Source of the DNA: a bacterium
GTDB taxonomy: Bacteria > UBP15 > UBA6099 > JAJRTR01
Length of the DNA stretch: 13,276 nt
NCBI GenBank assembly: GCA_024278215.1
Contig: JAJRTR010000161.1
Span: 1-13,276, forward strand
Direction: 5' to 3'
Program-made: the position numbers and the translations under genes
Part shown: piece after piece, positions 460 to 11,191 of the stretch
Position numbering within the stretch: position 1 is the first letter of the stretch
Layout: every line of letters starts with the position of its first letter
The notes under the pieces: generated by a model
What the model was told of the DNA's origin: nothing
Database searches by the model: none
The model's input: only the letters and a program-made list of their open reading frames with translations

Positions 460-1122
460 TTACCGTTTTTGGGATTGTCGGATTATCTCTTTTCTGCGGT
501 GGTAGTGGATGATGATTTTTTCGGGATCGACAACTTTTTCCACAATTCTGTCGGGCCGCACGTAGTCGTTGCCGACAGGCGTTGCAGCGGAAACGGCAAA
601 GGGAAAAGTATTTTTTATAAATTCGCTGCTGTCTCCCTTTTCTAAAAGAATTGCCACGGCTGCTGTCTCCATATCCAGGACTTCCATCTGCACATTTTCA
701 TCACGCGCGGCCCGCAGAAGGCGTTCGCCGATTCCGTCGGCGGCGTCTGTGAAATAAATGTAATATTGCATCGCCTTCGGCGGGTTTTCGTCTTTCTTCG
801 CCGAGCGCACCCGGCGGATTGAATCCAGCACCAGGCCCGGCGGCATCGCCGCGGCGAATGCGCGCTCGACTTCCGTCTCCGGTAACTCTTCCATAAGCTG
901 GAAAAACACGCGCTCGCATTCACTTGTGTGTCCCGAGGAAAGCGGCATAGTACGATACGATATTTTCGGTTTGGGATTAAACCCTTCCGAGAAATATATC
1001 GGCAATCCGGTGCGCCGAAGAAGCCGCATGAAAGCGCGCATCAGGTCGAGATGCGATATGAAACGCGCCTCCCACAACCTGGCGAATCGTATCCGGTATG
1101 GCACTCGTGTATCTTCAGTCAT
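460..1122 (-). CDS. DUF2344 / TIGR03936-like radical SAM-linked protein
   Basis: A 220-residue soluble protein of the DUF2344 family, which almost always sits beside or is fused to a TIGR03960 radical SAM protein. Its reaction has not been assigned as far as I know. Family-typical blocks are the N-terminal YRIRFARLWEARFISHLDLM, then FSEGFNPKPKISYRTMPLSSG, and the C-terminal basic RKEIIRQSQKR. The ATG at 1122 is chosen; an in-frame GTG at 1131 would add three residues. Either start overlaps the stop of the upstream radical SAM gene (TGA at 1115-1117), and neither has a visible Shine-Dalgarno, so translation is probably coupled. It should be transcribed from the promoter at 3014-3042. No transmembrane segment or signal peptide is seen. 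Recognition is firm; function is unknown. Confidence 0.88.
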   Translation of the reverse strand: MTEDTRVPYRIRFARLWEARFISHLDLMRAFMRLLRRTGLPIYFSEGFNPKPKISYRTMPLSSGHTSECERVFFQLMEELPETEVERAFAAAMPPGLVLDSIRRVRSAKKDENPPKAMQYYIYFTDAADGIGERLLRAARDENVQMEVLDMETAAVAILLEKGDSSEFIKNTFPFAVSAATPVGNDYVRPDRIVEKVVDPEKIIIHYHRRKEIIRQSQKR

Positions 1123-2950
1123 TGGTGTCACAGTCCAGTCCGCAGCCTGTACACCTGTTGCCGATGCAGCTTTCTGTTGTGTCGCCCCGCATGGCCTTAG
1201 CGCGTTCTATAAGAAGGTACTTTGTTGTTATGCCGCAATCAATGTGGCTCCAGGGGAGGCGGCTTCCGGGTTTGTACGGCGTGTGCGCGTAATCGGCGGG
1301 GTCGACACCTGCACGGCTGAATGCCTGTCGCCATTTATCTGCATCGAGACATTCGCTCCAGCCGTCGAATCGGCAGCCGAGATTGTAGGCTTCCTCGAGT
1401 GCGCGGCCGATCCTGCGGTCGCCACGTGCGAATACCGCTTCCATCGCGCTGCGGTGCGGATCGTGAAAGTCGAGTTTGACATGCCGCCGGTCGATCACCG
1501 AGCGAAGCAGCCTCTGTTTCCCGAACAGTTTTTCGACAGGTTCAAACGGTTCCCACTGGAACGGAGTGTGCGGTTTGGGCACAAAGTTAGAGACACTCAA
1601 TGTAAAATCCGGTTTGCCGCGTTTTCGGCCTGATTTTTTCTTTCCTGCAACCGCCGTCAGGCGTTTAATGAGCGCGGCTATTCCCAGCACATCTTCTTCT
1701 GTTTCCGTCGGGAGCCCGATCATAAAATAGAGTTTGACTTTTTTCCAGCCCGCCGCGAACGACGACGCGACAGCCCCGATTATCTCTTCATCCGTTATCC
1801 TTTTATTTATCACATTGCGCAGGCGCTGAGTGCCAGCCTCGGGAGCGAGAGTGAGCCCGGTCGCGCGCACGAGCCGGAGTTTTTCGCCGACCTCCTCGCT
1901 GAATGTGTCGATGCGCGACGACGGCATCGAGATAGACACGCGCCTGGGTGTGGCGAACTCGCTGAGCCCGTCCAGCAGGTGCGCCAGTTGTGAGTAATCC
2001 GGTGCGTTGAGCGACAGGAGCGACACCTCGTTCCAGCCGGAATGCCGATACATTTCTTTCACGTTCCCGATGAGGAAATCCGCATCGCGTTCCCGGCGCG
2101 GCCTGTAGATCATGCCTGCCTGGCAGTAGCGGCATCCCTGCGCGCATCCCCTGAAAATCTCGATGCTCATTCTGTCGTGTACCGCGTTTATCGAAGGCAG
2201 GATCAGTTTCGACGGGTAGTACGAGTTGCTCATGTTGCGCACATAGCGCCGCATTACCGGATAGGGCGCAGGCGGCGTTCCAGAGACGGTACACCTGCCG
2301 TTTTCGCCGGTTCCGGTTTCATATAGAGAAGGGATATACACGCCCTCGACCGCCGCGATCTTTTCGAGTATTTCCGGCCGTCCGCCACCTGCGGCTTTCA
2401 CCCGCCGCGCCGCTTCCATAATCTCCATTAGCGGCTCTTCGCCCTCGCCGATGACGAAGGCGTCGATGAAATCCGCCAGAGGTTCGGGGTTAACGGAGCA
2501 CCCGCCGCCCGCAATCACGACCGGTGCCGAGTCCGGTCGCCGCGCCGCCCGCAGTCCGAGTCCGCCCAGGTCGAGCATAGTCAGCACATTGGTGAAAGTC
2601 ATCTCGTAGGAAAGGGAAAACCCTATAATGTCGAACTCGCTCAGCGGGGTGAATGTTTCGAGCGAATAGAGTGGAAGAGCGCGACCGCGCAGTTCCTGCT
2701 CCATATCCGGCCAGGGCGCGAAACAGCGTTCGCAGGCGGCCCAGCCGAGTTCGTTGACGTAATGATATAAAAGCGTGAATCCGAGGCTCGACATGCCGAT
2801 CTCGTAGACTTCGGGAAAGCAGAGCGCGAGACGCACTTCCGCCGTGTCCTTCACGACGGCGTTGAGCTCACCGCCTGCATACCTGCCCGGTTTTCGCACA
2901 CGCGGAAGCACTTCCAACTCGATTTTTTTTCTTAGTTCTTTCCCTGTCAT
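1115..2950 (-). CDS. B12-binding-domain radical SAM protein, TIGR03960-like
   Basis: A 611-residue protein. The N-terminal third has the degenerate cobalamin-binding fold of this family (LCFPEVYEIGMSSLGF, with no base-off histidine), then an IAGGGCSVNPEPLADFIDAF block. The radical SAM CX3CX2C motif is at residues 269, 273 and 276 (FRGCAQGCRYCQAG) and should bind a 4Fe-4S cluster and S-adenosylmethionine. A Cys-rich tail (Cys 595, 600, 603, 607) may hold a further metal site. The ATG at 2950 is chosen because the conserved start (LPRVRKPGRYAGGE) follows at once and the promoter lies at 3014-3042. The frame stays open to 3115, but the extra 55 codons run through the promoter into the repeat element at 3066-3243. 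It is followed by the overlapping DUF2344 gene. The substrate is unknown. Confidence 0.9.
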   Translation of the reverse strand: MTGKELRKKIELEVLPRVRKPGRYAGGELNAVVKDTAEVRLALCFPEVYEIGMSSLGFTLLYHYVNELGWAACERCFAPWPDMEQELRGRALPLYSLETFTPLSEFDIIGFSLSYEMTFTNVLTMLDLGGLGLRAARRPDSAPVVIAGGGCSVNPEPLADFIDAFVIGEGEEPLMEIMEAARRVKAAGGGRPEILEKIAAVEGVYIPSLYETGTGENGRCTVSGTPPAPYPVMRRYVRNMSNSYYPSKLILPSINAVHDRMSIEIFRGCAQGCRYCQAGMIYRPRRERDADFLIGNVKEMYRHSGWNEVSLLSLNAPDYSQLAHLLDGLSEFATPRRVSISMPSSRIDTFSEEVGEKLRLVRATGLTLAPEAGTQRLRNVINKRITDEEIIGAVASSFAAGWKKVKLYFMIGLPTETEEDVLGIAALIKRLTAVAGKKKSGRKRGKPDFTLSVSNFVPKPHTPFQWEPFEPVEKLFGKQRLLRSVIDRRHVKLDFHDPHRSAMEAVFARGDRRIGRALEEAYNLGCRFDGWSECLDADKWRQAFSRAGVDPADYAHTPYKPGSRLPWSHIDCGITTKYLLIERAKAMRGDTTESCIGNRCTGCGLDCDTND

Positions 2951-2976
2951 AAGCTCGCCGGGTTCCTGCCGAATGG

Positions 2977-3010
2977 GACTTTCGACCCGCTCTGGTGAAA
3001 TATGCGGGGT
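2977..3010 (-). repeat. 34-bp hairpin-forming repeat, copy 1 (leader of radical SAM operon)
   Basis: The minus strand reads ACCCCGCATATTT, then ACCA, then GCGGG. It matches 3792-3825 at 28 of 34 positions in the same orientation. CCCGC and GCGGG can pair around a 13-nt loop. This copy lies in the predicted 5' leader of the radical SAM gene, between the transcription start near 3007 and the ATG at 2950. Confidence 0.6.
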
Positions 3011-3013
3011 TAA

Positions 3014-3042
3014 AATATAGTCTATGTGCGATGGAATATCAA
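3014..3042 (-). promoter_or_regulatory. Sigma70 promoter of the radical SAM / DUF2344 operon
   Basis: On the minus strand, TTGATA (3037-3042) and TATATT (3014-3019) are separated by exactly 17 nt, each 5 of 6 to consensus. Transcription would start near 3007, leaving a leader of about 57 nt before the ATG at 2950. This position excludes the longer frame start at 3115. Confidence 0.6.
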
Positions 3043-3065
3043 TACAATAGAATCGGAATATAGAT

Positions 3066-3243
3066 GAGCCAATTGCAAAATTCTGATTCTGCTGCGGTCT
3101 GCTGCTATTGTCCATAGCTGCGTTGTCGGCATAAAATCGTCCTCGACGTACTCTACAAGTACGCCTGCGAGGATTTTACACCTCCGCCTTGCTCTTATCA
3201 ATTTCGCTCAACCTCGCTACGAACATAATTTTGTAATTGGCTC
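3066..3243. mobile_element. MITE-like element, copy 1, with terminal inverted repeats and AGAT duplication
   Basis: The 178-bp element begins GAGCCAATTGCAAAATT and ends AATTTTGTAATTGGCTC. These ends are inverted repeats of each other with one mismatch in 17. It is flanked on both sides by AGAT (3062-3065 and 3244-3247), consistent with a 4-bp target duplication. It encodes no transposase. The centre folds into a stem: TAAAAT, CCTCG and CGTACT (3132-3152) pair with AGTACG, CGAGG and ATTTTA (3158-3178). A diverged second copy is at 10991-11163. It lies between the divergent radical SAM promoter and the tatA promoter and leaves both intact. Confidence 0.75.
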
Positions 3244-3279
3244 AGATGAAGTAGCGCAAATGAATCCGAAAGAAATTCG

Positions 3280-3339: not shown

Positions 3340-3564
3340 ATGTGGACACCGGGAATCGGTGAAATTATAGTAATACTCGTAGTGGCGTTGCTGATATTCG
3401 GGCCGAGGAAACTGCCTGAGATGGGCAAGGCCATCGGTTCGGCTGTAACAGAATTCAAAAAAGGCATCGCGGGAGTATCCGTGGACGACACAAAAAACGA
3501 GCCGCCGAGAATAATAGATTCATCGAACGAAAAAGAAGAAGACAAGACAAAACCAGTCGGCTGA
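3340..3564 (+). CDS. tatA: Sec-independent protein translocase subunit TatA/TatE
   Basis: A 74-residue inner-membrane protein that forms the oligomeric pore component of twin-arginine translocation, which exports folded proteins. An N-terminal membrane helix (IGEIIVILVVALLIF, about residues 6-20) is followed by the hallmark hinge FGPRKLPEMGKAIGSAVTEFKKG and its amphipathic helix, then a short acidic and charged tail (SSNEKEEDKTKPVG). Length and layout are normal for TatA; TatB proteins are usually longer with a different hinge. AGAGG sits 6 nt upstream of the ATG and the promoter is at 3280-3307, so it appears to be a single-gene unit. No tatC is in the window. The next gene's product has a Sec-type signal without twin arginines, so it is not an obvious Tat substrate. 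Confidence 0.93.
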   Translation: MWTPGIGEIIVILVVALLIFGPRKLPEMGKAIGSAVTEFKKGIAGVSVDDTKNEPPRIIDSSNEKEEDKTKPVG

Positions 3565-3791: not shown

Positions 3792-3825
3792 GATTTTTGG
3801 CCCGCATTGGTAAAATATGCGGGGT
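3792..3825 (-). repeat. 34-bp hairpin-forming repeat, copy 2
   Basis: It matches 2977-3010 at 28 of 34 positions in the same orientation. Here the stem is longer: CCCGCAT (3801-3807) pairs with ATGCGGG (3817-3823) around a 9-nt loop. No gene start follows on the minus strand, unlike copy 1. Confidence 0.6.
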
Positions 3826-7808: not shown

Positions 7809-8972
7809 ATGCGCGACAAAAAGTCAGACAACACAGTAATTACTGCAACACTCACCTGCCTGTCCGACAGGTTTTCACCACGTGATGCGGTCATAAAAAA
7901 TATCAGCTGTGCAGACATTCCCTGGCCGCGGCTGATGCGGATCGCCCGCGAAAACCGAGTTCTTCCGCAGATCGGCAAAAACGTCGCACGGGCCGGCGCT
8001 GAAAATATCATTCCTCCGGAATATAGAAAAGAAATCACCGGGGCACCCCGGCACGCGGCGGCAATGAACATGCTGCTCGACGCGGCCCGGCACGCGATAT
8101 CGGGCGCGGCGGCAGCGCGCTCCATACCGCTGATTCCGCTCAAAGGCATCTCGATGCTGGGGCGGGTCTGCGAGTTCGACGAAAGACGTATGAGCGACAT
8201 AGACCTTCTCATAAAGAAGGAAAGTCGCGACCCGTTCCGCGACATGATGGCGGAGCTTGGGTATAAAGAGGATGAAGATGACATACATGGCAGTTTCTCC
8301 GATGAACACGCAGGTGAAAACAAATATTACAGAATTGTTTCCGGCGCGCGAATAGCCGTTGAAGCACACTGGGACCCGGCACCCGAAACGGCGATAAAGA
8401 AGGCTTTCCCACTCCCGCCGGATATTCTTTGGCGCAGTTCTCATTGCGCATGTTCGCGGTGTGAACATACCGGTTCCCGCAACCTCAGCCCGGAGTCCGA
8501 GTTGCTTTTCTGCATCCACCACCTCGCCGCCCGGCACTCGTTCGCGCGCCTGATGTGGTTTCTGGACATACATTATCTGCTCGCCGCGCACAGTGGCGTC
8601 CTCGATGCGGACCTGTTGCGCACGCAACTCGCAGACGCCGGACTTTCCAGAGCGTCCCGTTTCATATTCCGGTTTTTAAAGCGCTTTTTCGGCGCGATAA
8701 TCCCCCGCGCACTATCCCCGGATAGCGAGTCGCCCAGGAAAATTGATGGAATGATGGACGGTTTTATTATCGATTCAATCTGCGGCGGCAGAATAAAAAA
8801 AACAGGTCTGCTTCCCGGAATCTTCGCGGACAACCCCGTGCCGTATTTCACAGGATACCTTTTTCCACCCGTCGAATTCCTGAAATCGCGCTTCCCCGGC
8901 GTGCCCACGCCCCTGCTCTATCCATACAGAATAATCGACCTGGCCGGAAAAGTATTAAAAAGAGCAGATTAA
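7809..8972 (+). CDS. Nucleotidyltransferase-fold protein, NTP_transf_5 (PF14907)-like
   Basis: 387 residues with no signal peptide. The family signature is present: LKG at 111-113, then ERRMSDIDLLI (Asp130 and Asp132 as the metal-binding pair of the polymerase-beta-type fold) and RIAVEAHWD at 181-189 (Glu185 and His187, where the third acidic residue is expected). Members are usually annotated as uncharacterised nucleotidyltransferases and often sit in polysaccharide, surface-protein or peptide-modification loci. The true substrate is unknown. The ATG lies 9 nt after the stop of the barrel gene and lacks a strong Shine-Dalgarno, so the two are probably cotranscribed and coupled. This suggests, as inference only, a role in modifying or building the same surface structure. 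The C-terminal half is helical and basic and resembles no second domain I recognise. Confidence 0.75.
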   Translation: MRDKKSDNTVITATLTCLSDRFSPRDAVIKNISCADIPWPRLMRIARENRVLPQIGKNVARAGAENIIPPEYRKEITGAPRHAAAMNMLLDAARHAISGAAAARSIPLIPLKGISMLGRVCEFDERRMSDIDLLIKKESRDPFRDMMAELGYKEDEDDIHGSFSDEHAGENKYYRIVSGARIAVEAHWDPAPETAIKKAFPLPPDILWRSSHCACSRCEHTGSRNLSPESELLFCIHHLAARHSFARLMWFLDIHYLLAAHSGVLDADLLRTQLADAGLSRASRFIFRFLKRFFGAIIPRALSPDSESPRKIDGMMDGFIIDSICGGRIKKTGLLPGIFADNPVPYFTGYLFPPVEFLKSRFPGVPTPLLYPYRIIDLAGKVLKRAD

Positions 8973-8982
8973 ATTTTGTAAT

Positions 8983-9064
8983 CAGCTCAAAAGCTGCACC
9001 CGTTCAAAGTGCAACAACAGTGAATAATGATAGAAAAACGAGATCCTTCGATTCGCTCAGAATG
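8983..9064. other. Convergent intergenic region with small hairpin and familiar intergenic motif
   Basis: CAGCT-caaa-AGCTG (8983-8996) is a short hairpin just after the nucleotidyltransferase stop, without a T-run. Bases 9038-9064 (AACGAGATCCTTCG, then CGCTCAGAATG) recall a sequence I have seen dispersed between genes in unrelated environmental genomes; this is memory, not a search. The rest, up to the TPR gene end at 9214, shows nothing clear. Confidence 0.3.
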
Positions 9065-10978: not shown

Positions 10979-10990
10979 CAACCGGGAAAG

Positions 10991-11163
10991 CCGATTGCAA
11001 AATTCTGATTCGGCTGTGGCCGGCTGCAATTGTCAACAGCTGCGTTGTCGGCGAAAGACCGTCCTCGACGTAGCTCCGAGAGTATGCTTTTGGGGATTTT
11101 TCATCTTTGCTCTGTCCAGAAATATTTAGCCCGGCCTCGTTACAAACATGATTTTGCAATTGG
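10991..11163. mobile_element. MITE-like element, copy 2 (diverged)
   Basis: 173 bp from CCGATTGCAAAATTCTG to the inverted end ATTTTGCAATTGG. The two ends match each other as inverted repeats at about 14 of 17 positions. The first 82 nt match copy 1 (3069-3150) at roughly 85 percent by eye, including GCTGCGTTGTCGGC and CGTCCTCGACGTA. The last 28 nt match at 24 positions; the stretch between is poorly conserved. No target duplication is visible, so this copy is probably older. It occupies most of the gap between the ANTAR regulator and the next gene. Confidence 0.7.
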
Positions 11164-11191
11164 ATGAAGAGAACTCCTGTTTTATAAGGAA

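Follow-up and report, generated by a model that had tools for sequence, protein, structure and literature searches.

The DNA stretch analysed here (the window, 13,276 nucleotides) is contig 137 of a bacterial genome assembled into 207 contigs totalling 4.55 Mb. A short element lies in the gap that separates tatA (3340-3564, plus strand) from a radical-SAM/B12-binding gene on the minus strand with its start at 2950; the element reads AGAT, GAGCCAATTGCAAAATT, 144 bp of interior, AATTTTGTAATTGGCTC and a second AGAT (Table 1). The two 17-bp terminal inverted repeats pair at 16 of 17 positions. The 178 bp between the duplications are non-coding and hold no transposase gene, and their length falls below the 500 bp used to delimit MITEs. 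The element folds on itself from end to end, with z values of -4.8 and -6.3 for the two strands. A sequence-only reading of the window had described a 178-bp non-coding element with inverted-repeat ends and AGAT on both sides, and positions 3062-3247 agree with that description. In the radical-SAM gene, the longest open frame (1115-3115) begins at an ATG within the MITE. The gene itself probably starts at 2950, and automatic annotation may stretch it into the element.

Table 1. Positions of the MITE, its parts and related features. Coordinates are those of the window, except in the last row, which lists loci in other genomes.
Feature	Position	Strand	Basis or remark
Left target-site duplication AGAT	3062..3065		Sequence; 4-bp duplications family-wide
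178-bp MITE	3066..3243	-	Conserved 'core' strand is the window minus strand
Left terminal inverted repeat GAGCCAATTGCAAAATT	3066..3082	+	Sequence, copy ends
Subterminal motif GCAGCAGAA, core strand	3087..3095	-	46 nt 3' of core in family consensus; position common to other-phylum elements
Hairpin tip, core strand GGCGTACTTGTAGAGTACGTCGAG	3142..3165	-	Tip comparison and alignment
Subterminal motif TTCGTAGCGA, core strand	3214..3223	-	About 58 nt 5' of core; 59-61 nt in most other-phylum elements having the motif
Right terminal inverted repeat (reverse complement GAGCCAATTACAAAATT)	3227..3243	-	Sequence, copy ends
Right target-site duplication AGAT	3244..3247		Sequence
Second family copy, decayed	10988..11166	-	75% identity over whole element, ends decayed, no intact duplication
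Possible lone terminal-repeat relic, 3 mismatches	8972..8988	-	Directly 3' of NTP_transf_5 gene; weak
Shorter tip-bearing loci	L087, L092, L122, L152, L156, L171; L090, L105, L142, L153, L160		Desulfobacterota, Phascolarctobacterium

Other repeats also lie in the window. One, at ~148-342, belongs to a different family of high-copy repeats with inverted arms, which is present at 30 places in the 2.0 Mb of the genome that were sampled. Elsewhere, the MITE has inserted into copies of a repeat related to this one, which is the source of the empty sites described below. The palindrome GGCCCGCATTGGTAAAATATGCGGGG occurs at 2977-3010 and 3792-3825 and at 56 places in the same sample; one of its arms equals CCCGCATATTTCACC, the end sequence of related elements in other phyla.

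The element belongs to a large family in its own genome. At least 40 full-length matches at 94-100% identity were present among 479-483 first-look candidates, and the genome contains 209 matches to the 22-base inner-end pattern when one mismatch is allowed, against 0 for the reversed control. The 2.0 Mb sample (44% of the genome) contains 113 full copies, 68 partial copies and 32 copies near stretch or contig ends, covering 1.4% of the sampled bases, a density that is not unbiased because the stretches were partly chosen for carrying matches. Full copies are mostly 178 or 179 bp long. Among 75 copies from the first 1.42 Mb, identity to the consensus has a median of 95.5% and reaches 99.4% in the best copy, which indicates that some copies are young. 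Many contigs begin at a MITE (e.g. C25, C28, C31, C60, C76, C108, C173 and C174); the element thus breaks the genome assembly, and its copy number is probably underestimated. Copies lie between genes and close to gene ends and show no preferred orientation: of those beside tandem genes, 22 point the same way as the genes and 16 the other way (p 0.42). When eight close cases were checked for gene interruption, none of the joins restored one open frame, so the element sits at gene ends. Plasmid and phage collections gave no match, and in viral contigs the ends had 0 matches and the tip of its hairpin one chance match.

Exact target-site duplications of 4 bp flank 69 of the 107 testable copies in the sample, and a further 6 copies have duplications of 5 bp. 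These 75 copies compare with about 3 expected from shuffled flanks (2.4 for 4 bp and 0.4 for 5 bp). The target is AT-rich, with a C just 5' in 43 and a G just 3' in 30 of the 69 cases, and the 30-bp flanks have a GC content of 34% vs 51% in the sample. Insertion is shown directly, since copies within other repeats of the same genome have uninterrupted counterparts with a single target. The copy at L191:5166-5343 reads CCCATC-TTAC-element-TTAC-GTCTTTT, to be compared with the empty counterpart CCCATCTTACGTC; this counterpart is found in L043 with CCCATCTTACGTCTTTT, at 96% identity over 52 bases, and at a second place with 92%. In another case (L190:19199-19376) the target is ATTTG. What inserts is a 178-bp unit with GAGCCAATTGC at its ends, and it duplicates 4 bp and sometimes 5. 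The window element is a genuine and abundant non-autonomous MITE, and ordinary as such. This bears out the sequence-only reading, which had named many copies with ends coinciding with the inverted repeats as support: the genome contains them, mostly with 4-bp duplications, and empty sites with a single target copy, the kind of evidence that it had named as decisive, exist for other copies of the family.

That reading had also placed the transposase outside the window. We agree, and none was found in 2.0 of the 4.55 Mb of the genome either, where long end pairs were examined for an autonomous element with the family ends. Where such a pair is flanked by a duplication, what lies between the ends is a fapA gene (L074) or a gene for phosphonate binding (L220) and not a transposase, and the L220 pair is in fact two separate element copies. 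The fapA-like gene lies between two MITE-family ends with TTAT on both sides (L074:1696-3518), possibly as a composite mobile unit or by chance. As partners we rejected DDE_Tnp_1, with three genes in the genome, all with other or no recognisable ends; IS1380, with one C-terminal remnant below the cut-off that is not bounded by family ends; and DDE_Tnp_1_6, present only as fossil tails. The DDE_5 (PF13546) transposase had no match in this genome. Fossil C-terminal tails occur beside MITE copies in L255 (C188:8625, DDE_Tnp_1_6-like) and L174 (C44:16102, IS1380-like); in L255 the MITE lies 10 bp past the stop codon, with a CATA duplication.

The sequence-only reading is incomplete rather than wrong, as it missed a hairpin interior that is common to elements of other phyla with other ends. 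In a genome from another family of the same order (G002), a 179-bp element is present in three full copies and as fragments, and its interior aligns to the window family at 70% (E 6e-10). Its ends read GAGRCTCTAACAA (GAGRCTCTAAC), and all three full copies have 3-bp duplications (TTA, TAA and TTA), whereas the window family combines GAGCCAATTGC with 4 bp. Searching 84,980 species genomes for the tip pattern GGCGTACTT-N(2-6)-AGTACGTCGAG yielded at least 90 stretches, from Gammaproteobacteria, Deltaproteobacteria, Nitrospira, Acidobacteria, Bryobacterales, Aegiribacteria, Phascolarctobacterium and others; four of the matches (L099, L117, L140 and L159) were judged coding by eye and left out. The long, imperfect hairpin with the invariant tip GGCGTACTT...AGTACGTCGAG and fixed subterminal motifs occurs again in Nitrospira, Acidobacteria, proteobacteria and Aegiribacteria, where it is usually multi-copy. 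Many of these stretches are foldback elements of ~180-220 bp with CCYGCAT...TCA ends, flanked on both sides by CTAG, TTAG, CTAA or TTAA. Since the non-palindromic flanks (TTAG/TTAG, CTAA/CTAA) are direct repeats, YTAR is the target duplication of the CCYGCAT elements. Shorter tip-bearing hairpin elements with other ends and spacing, the relation of which to the window family is less clear, occur in Desulfobacterota and Phascolarctobacterium (Table 1).

The elements of other phyla were gathered by their tip, so that identity of the tip is given by construction; only the positions, the ends, the covariation and the strand bias do not depend on it, and the window family itself was not selected by the tip. 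Among 37 non-redundant elements, 23 contain TTCGTNGCGA with no more than 2 mismatches, in most cases 59-61 nt 5' of the tip, while 16 contain GCAGYAGAA with no more than 1 mismatch, usually 45-47 nt 3' of it. Fifteen of the 37 have both motifs, where local shuffles predict 0.1, and in the window family the spacing is ~58 and 46 nt from the tip. Global alignments of five other-phylum elements and the G002 element to the window-family interior gave z values of 3.2 to 24 over flank-shuffled controls. A core-masked nhmmer profile, too weak to use alone, did not detect most other-phylum elements at low E-values; homology outside the tip therefore rests on positions, structure and the flank-shuffled alignments.

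When 23 interiors are aligned, bases pair in 85.6% of the stem cells, and 29 of 39 pairs have changed on both sides. The covariation score is 0.55, compared with 0.19 for shuffled and at most 0.16 for slid controls, in a test somewhat favoured by deriving the structure from the same alignment. The resulting covariance model R1 spans 144 positions and has matches in 33 of the 36 genomes searched, where the copies per genome range from 1 to at least 88; most of these genomes had been chosen for containing the tip, and some had supplied rows of the model. In the window, R1, the alignment of which includes this copy, matches 3084-3225 on the minus strand with 109.7 bits (E 3.3e-27). The related copy that the sequence-only reading had seen about 7.9 kb away is likewise found by the model of the interior (E = 1.2e-8). 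Against Rfam 15, neither the window nor any of 12 loci carrying related elements matched a covariance model.

One strand of the hairpin is favoured. In 33 of 36 non-redundant elements from other genomes, the core strand gives a more stable fold than its reverse complement does (mean -14 kcal/mol, p 1.6e-9), and the sequence neighbouring those 36 elements has no such bias. The same preference is seen in 73 of 75 copies of the window genome (mean -10.7 kcal/mol). With the tip swapped for a perfect palindrome, the core strand is still better in 32 of the 36 (mean -10 kcal/mol). Strand-biased mutation as the source of the asymmetry is ruled out in the window genome by the substitution spectrum of its copies, in which private substitutions run opposite to the asymmetry, with G>A at 3.9 and C>T at 2.7 per site. 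Where one base of a stem pair has changed in these copies, the outcome is A-C in 236 cases, more often than G-U (163). An RNA is not proven by the asymmetry, because G-T wobbles also beat A-C mismatches in DNA. In resident copies, single changes broke 431 stem pairs and kept 322. Resident copies decay while the consensus stays folded, which would place the constraint on the spreading copies and not on a host function at each site. Judged from these patterns, the fold would be kept through selection among spreading copies and not through use at each site.

Taken together, the best explanation is probably that the family belongs to a MITE superfamily with a kept, strand-specific hairpin relevant to its propagation, and that lineages have changed its ends and hence its transposase. 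A DDE-type transposase acting in trans would cut the GAGCC ends with a 4-bp stagger. Folding of the core strand in single-stranded form, which is most likely RNA but may be single-stranded DNA, would matter to how the element propagates, and the hairpin could bind a protein or protect or regulate an intermediate. Between lineages, the ends would have been changed, and with them the transposase that moves the element.

On a simpler account, the family would be an ordinary MITE that arose from a local insertion sequence by internal deletion; its interior would be filler, and the cross-phylum likeness would reflect horizontal spread of one MITE with drifted ends. The family has every classic MITE feature, a compact element plausibly spreads horizontally, and resident copies decay unconstrained. 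However, filler should not retain, from phylum to phylum, covarying pairs, motif distances that differ by only 1-3 nt and a fold of one strand. The ends also differ both in sequence and in duplication length (3 bp, 4 bp, YTAR), and drift alone does not produce such differences because ends must match a transposase. We therefore consider this account unlikely. It is far less probable still that the repeat serves the host, for example as a hairpin for transcript processing, a terminator or a nucleoid site, and that many loci retain it for the benefit of each copy. The strong hairpin and the position of copies close to gene ends would suit such a role, but the lack of an orientation preference and the excess of broken over kept stem pairs in resident copies do not, and the clean duplications and empty sites mark recent transposition.

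The one-strand fold bias would also suit the single-stranded DNA intermediate of a REP/RAYT-type repeat moved by a tyrosine transposase, and REPs, as far as PMC3733652 describes them, are likewise palindromic, extragenic, high in copy number and found in several phyla. In that description, however, REPs measure only 20-40 bp and bear a GTAG or CGTC tag, whereas the window family is 178 bp long with terminal inverted repeats and 4-bp duplications, the marks of double-strand staggered-cut transposition, and has empty sites with a single target copy. This origin is largely refuted, and we give it hardly any weight. Returning to a MITE with a propagation-relevant hairpin, a more far-reaching version can be put forward only tentatively and may well not hold. 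According to it, the hairpin, with its invariant tip, asymmetric internal loop and fixed subterminal motifs, could be a widespread and uncatalogued mobile passenger across many phyla, which repeatedly swaps transposon ends so that unrelated transposases move it and which would itself be the strand-specific RNA or single-stranded DNA on which its propagation depends.

The exchanged ends are reminiscent of different insertion sequence families. IS701-type ends have a YTAR target, and the CCYGCAT elements of other phyla have matching 4-bp YTAR duplications. Unlike these, the window family has no YTAR preference, its duplications being varied AT-rich 4-mers, and its genome lacks a DDE_5 match. The GAG... 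ends and 3-bp TTA/TAA duplications of the sister family in G002 are reminiscent of the IS1031/ISL2 type of the IS5 family. In contrast, the window family duplicates 4 bp, and the three DDE_Tnp_1 genes of its genome lie in elements with other ends.

The bacterial MITE families named in the parts of PMC3733652 and PMC10969869 drawn on here are Correia/NEMIS, ERIC, RUP, Nezha and QMITE. As characterised there, bacterial MITEs resemble the window family in being shorter than 500 bp, carrying no gene, and having terminal inverted repeats, a target duplication, AT-rich intergenic sites and a stable stem-loop. Compared by description and not by all sequences, none of these named families is described in those parts with one interior across phyla and different ends. 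According to the 2024 review of prokaryotic MITEs (PMC10969869), transcripts of MITEs adopt stable stem-loops, so a folded hairpin is not novel in itself. The new part appears to be the shared interior with exchanged ends, of which we found no description in the literature searched. A full-text search of mainly open-access literature, with ISfinder outside its scope, returned only primers and unrelated matches for the tip and end sequences, which is weak evidence of absence.

The interior of a MITE is usually taken for leftover filler, with the ends alone mattering; here, the interior hairpin is kept and the ends change. The kept hairpin, its compensatory changes and its preferred strand provide a testable case of a MITE with a functional folded element of its own that switches transposases. 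In addition, the 144-position covariance model offers a marker for such elements in environmental genomes, where they occur in dozens to hundreds of copies.
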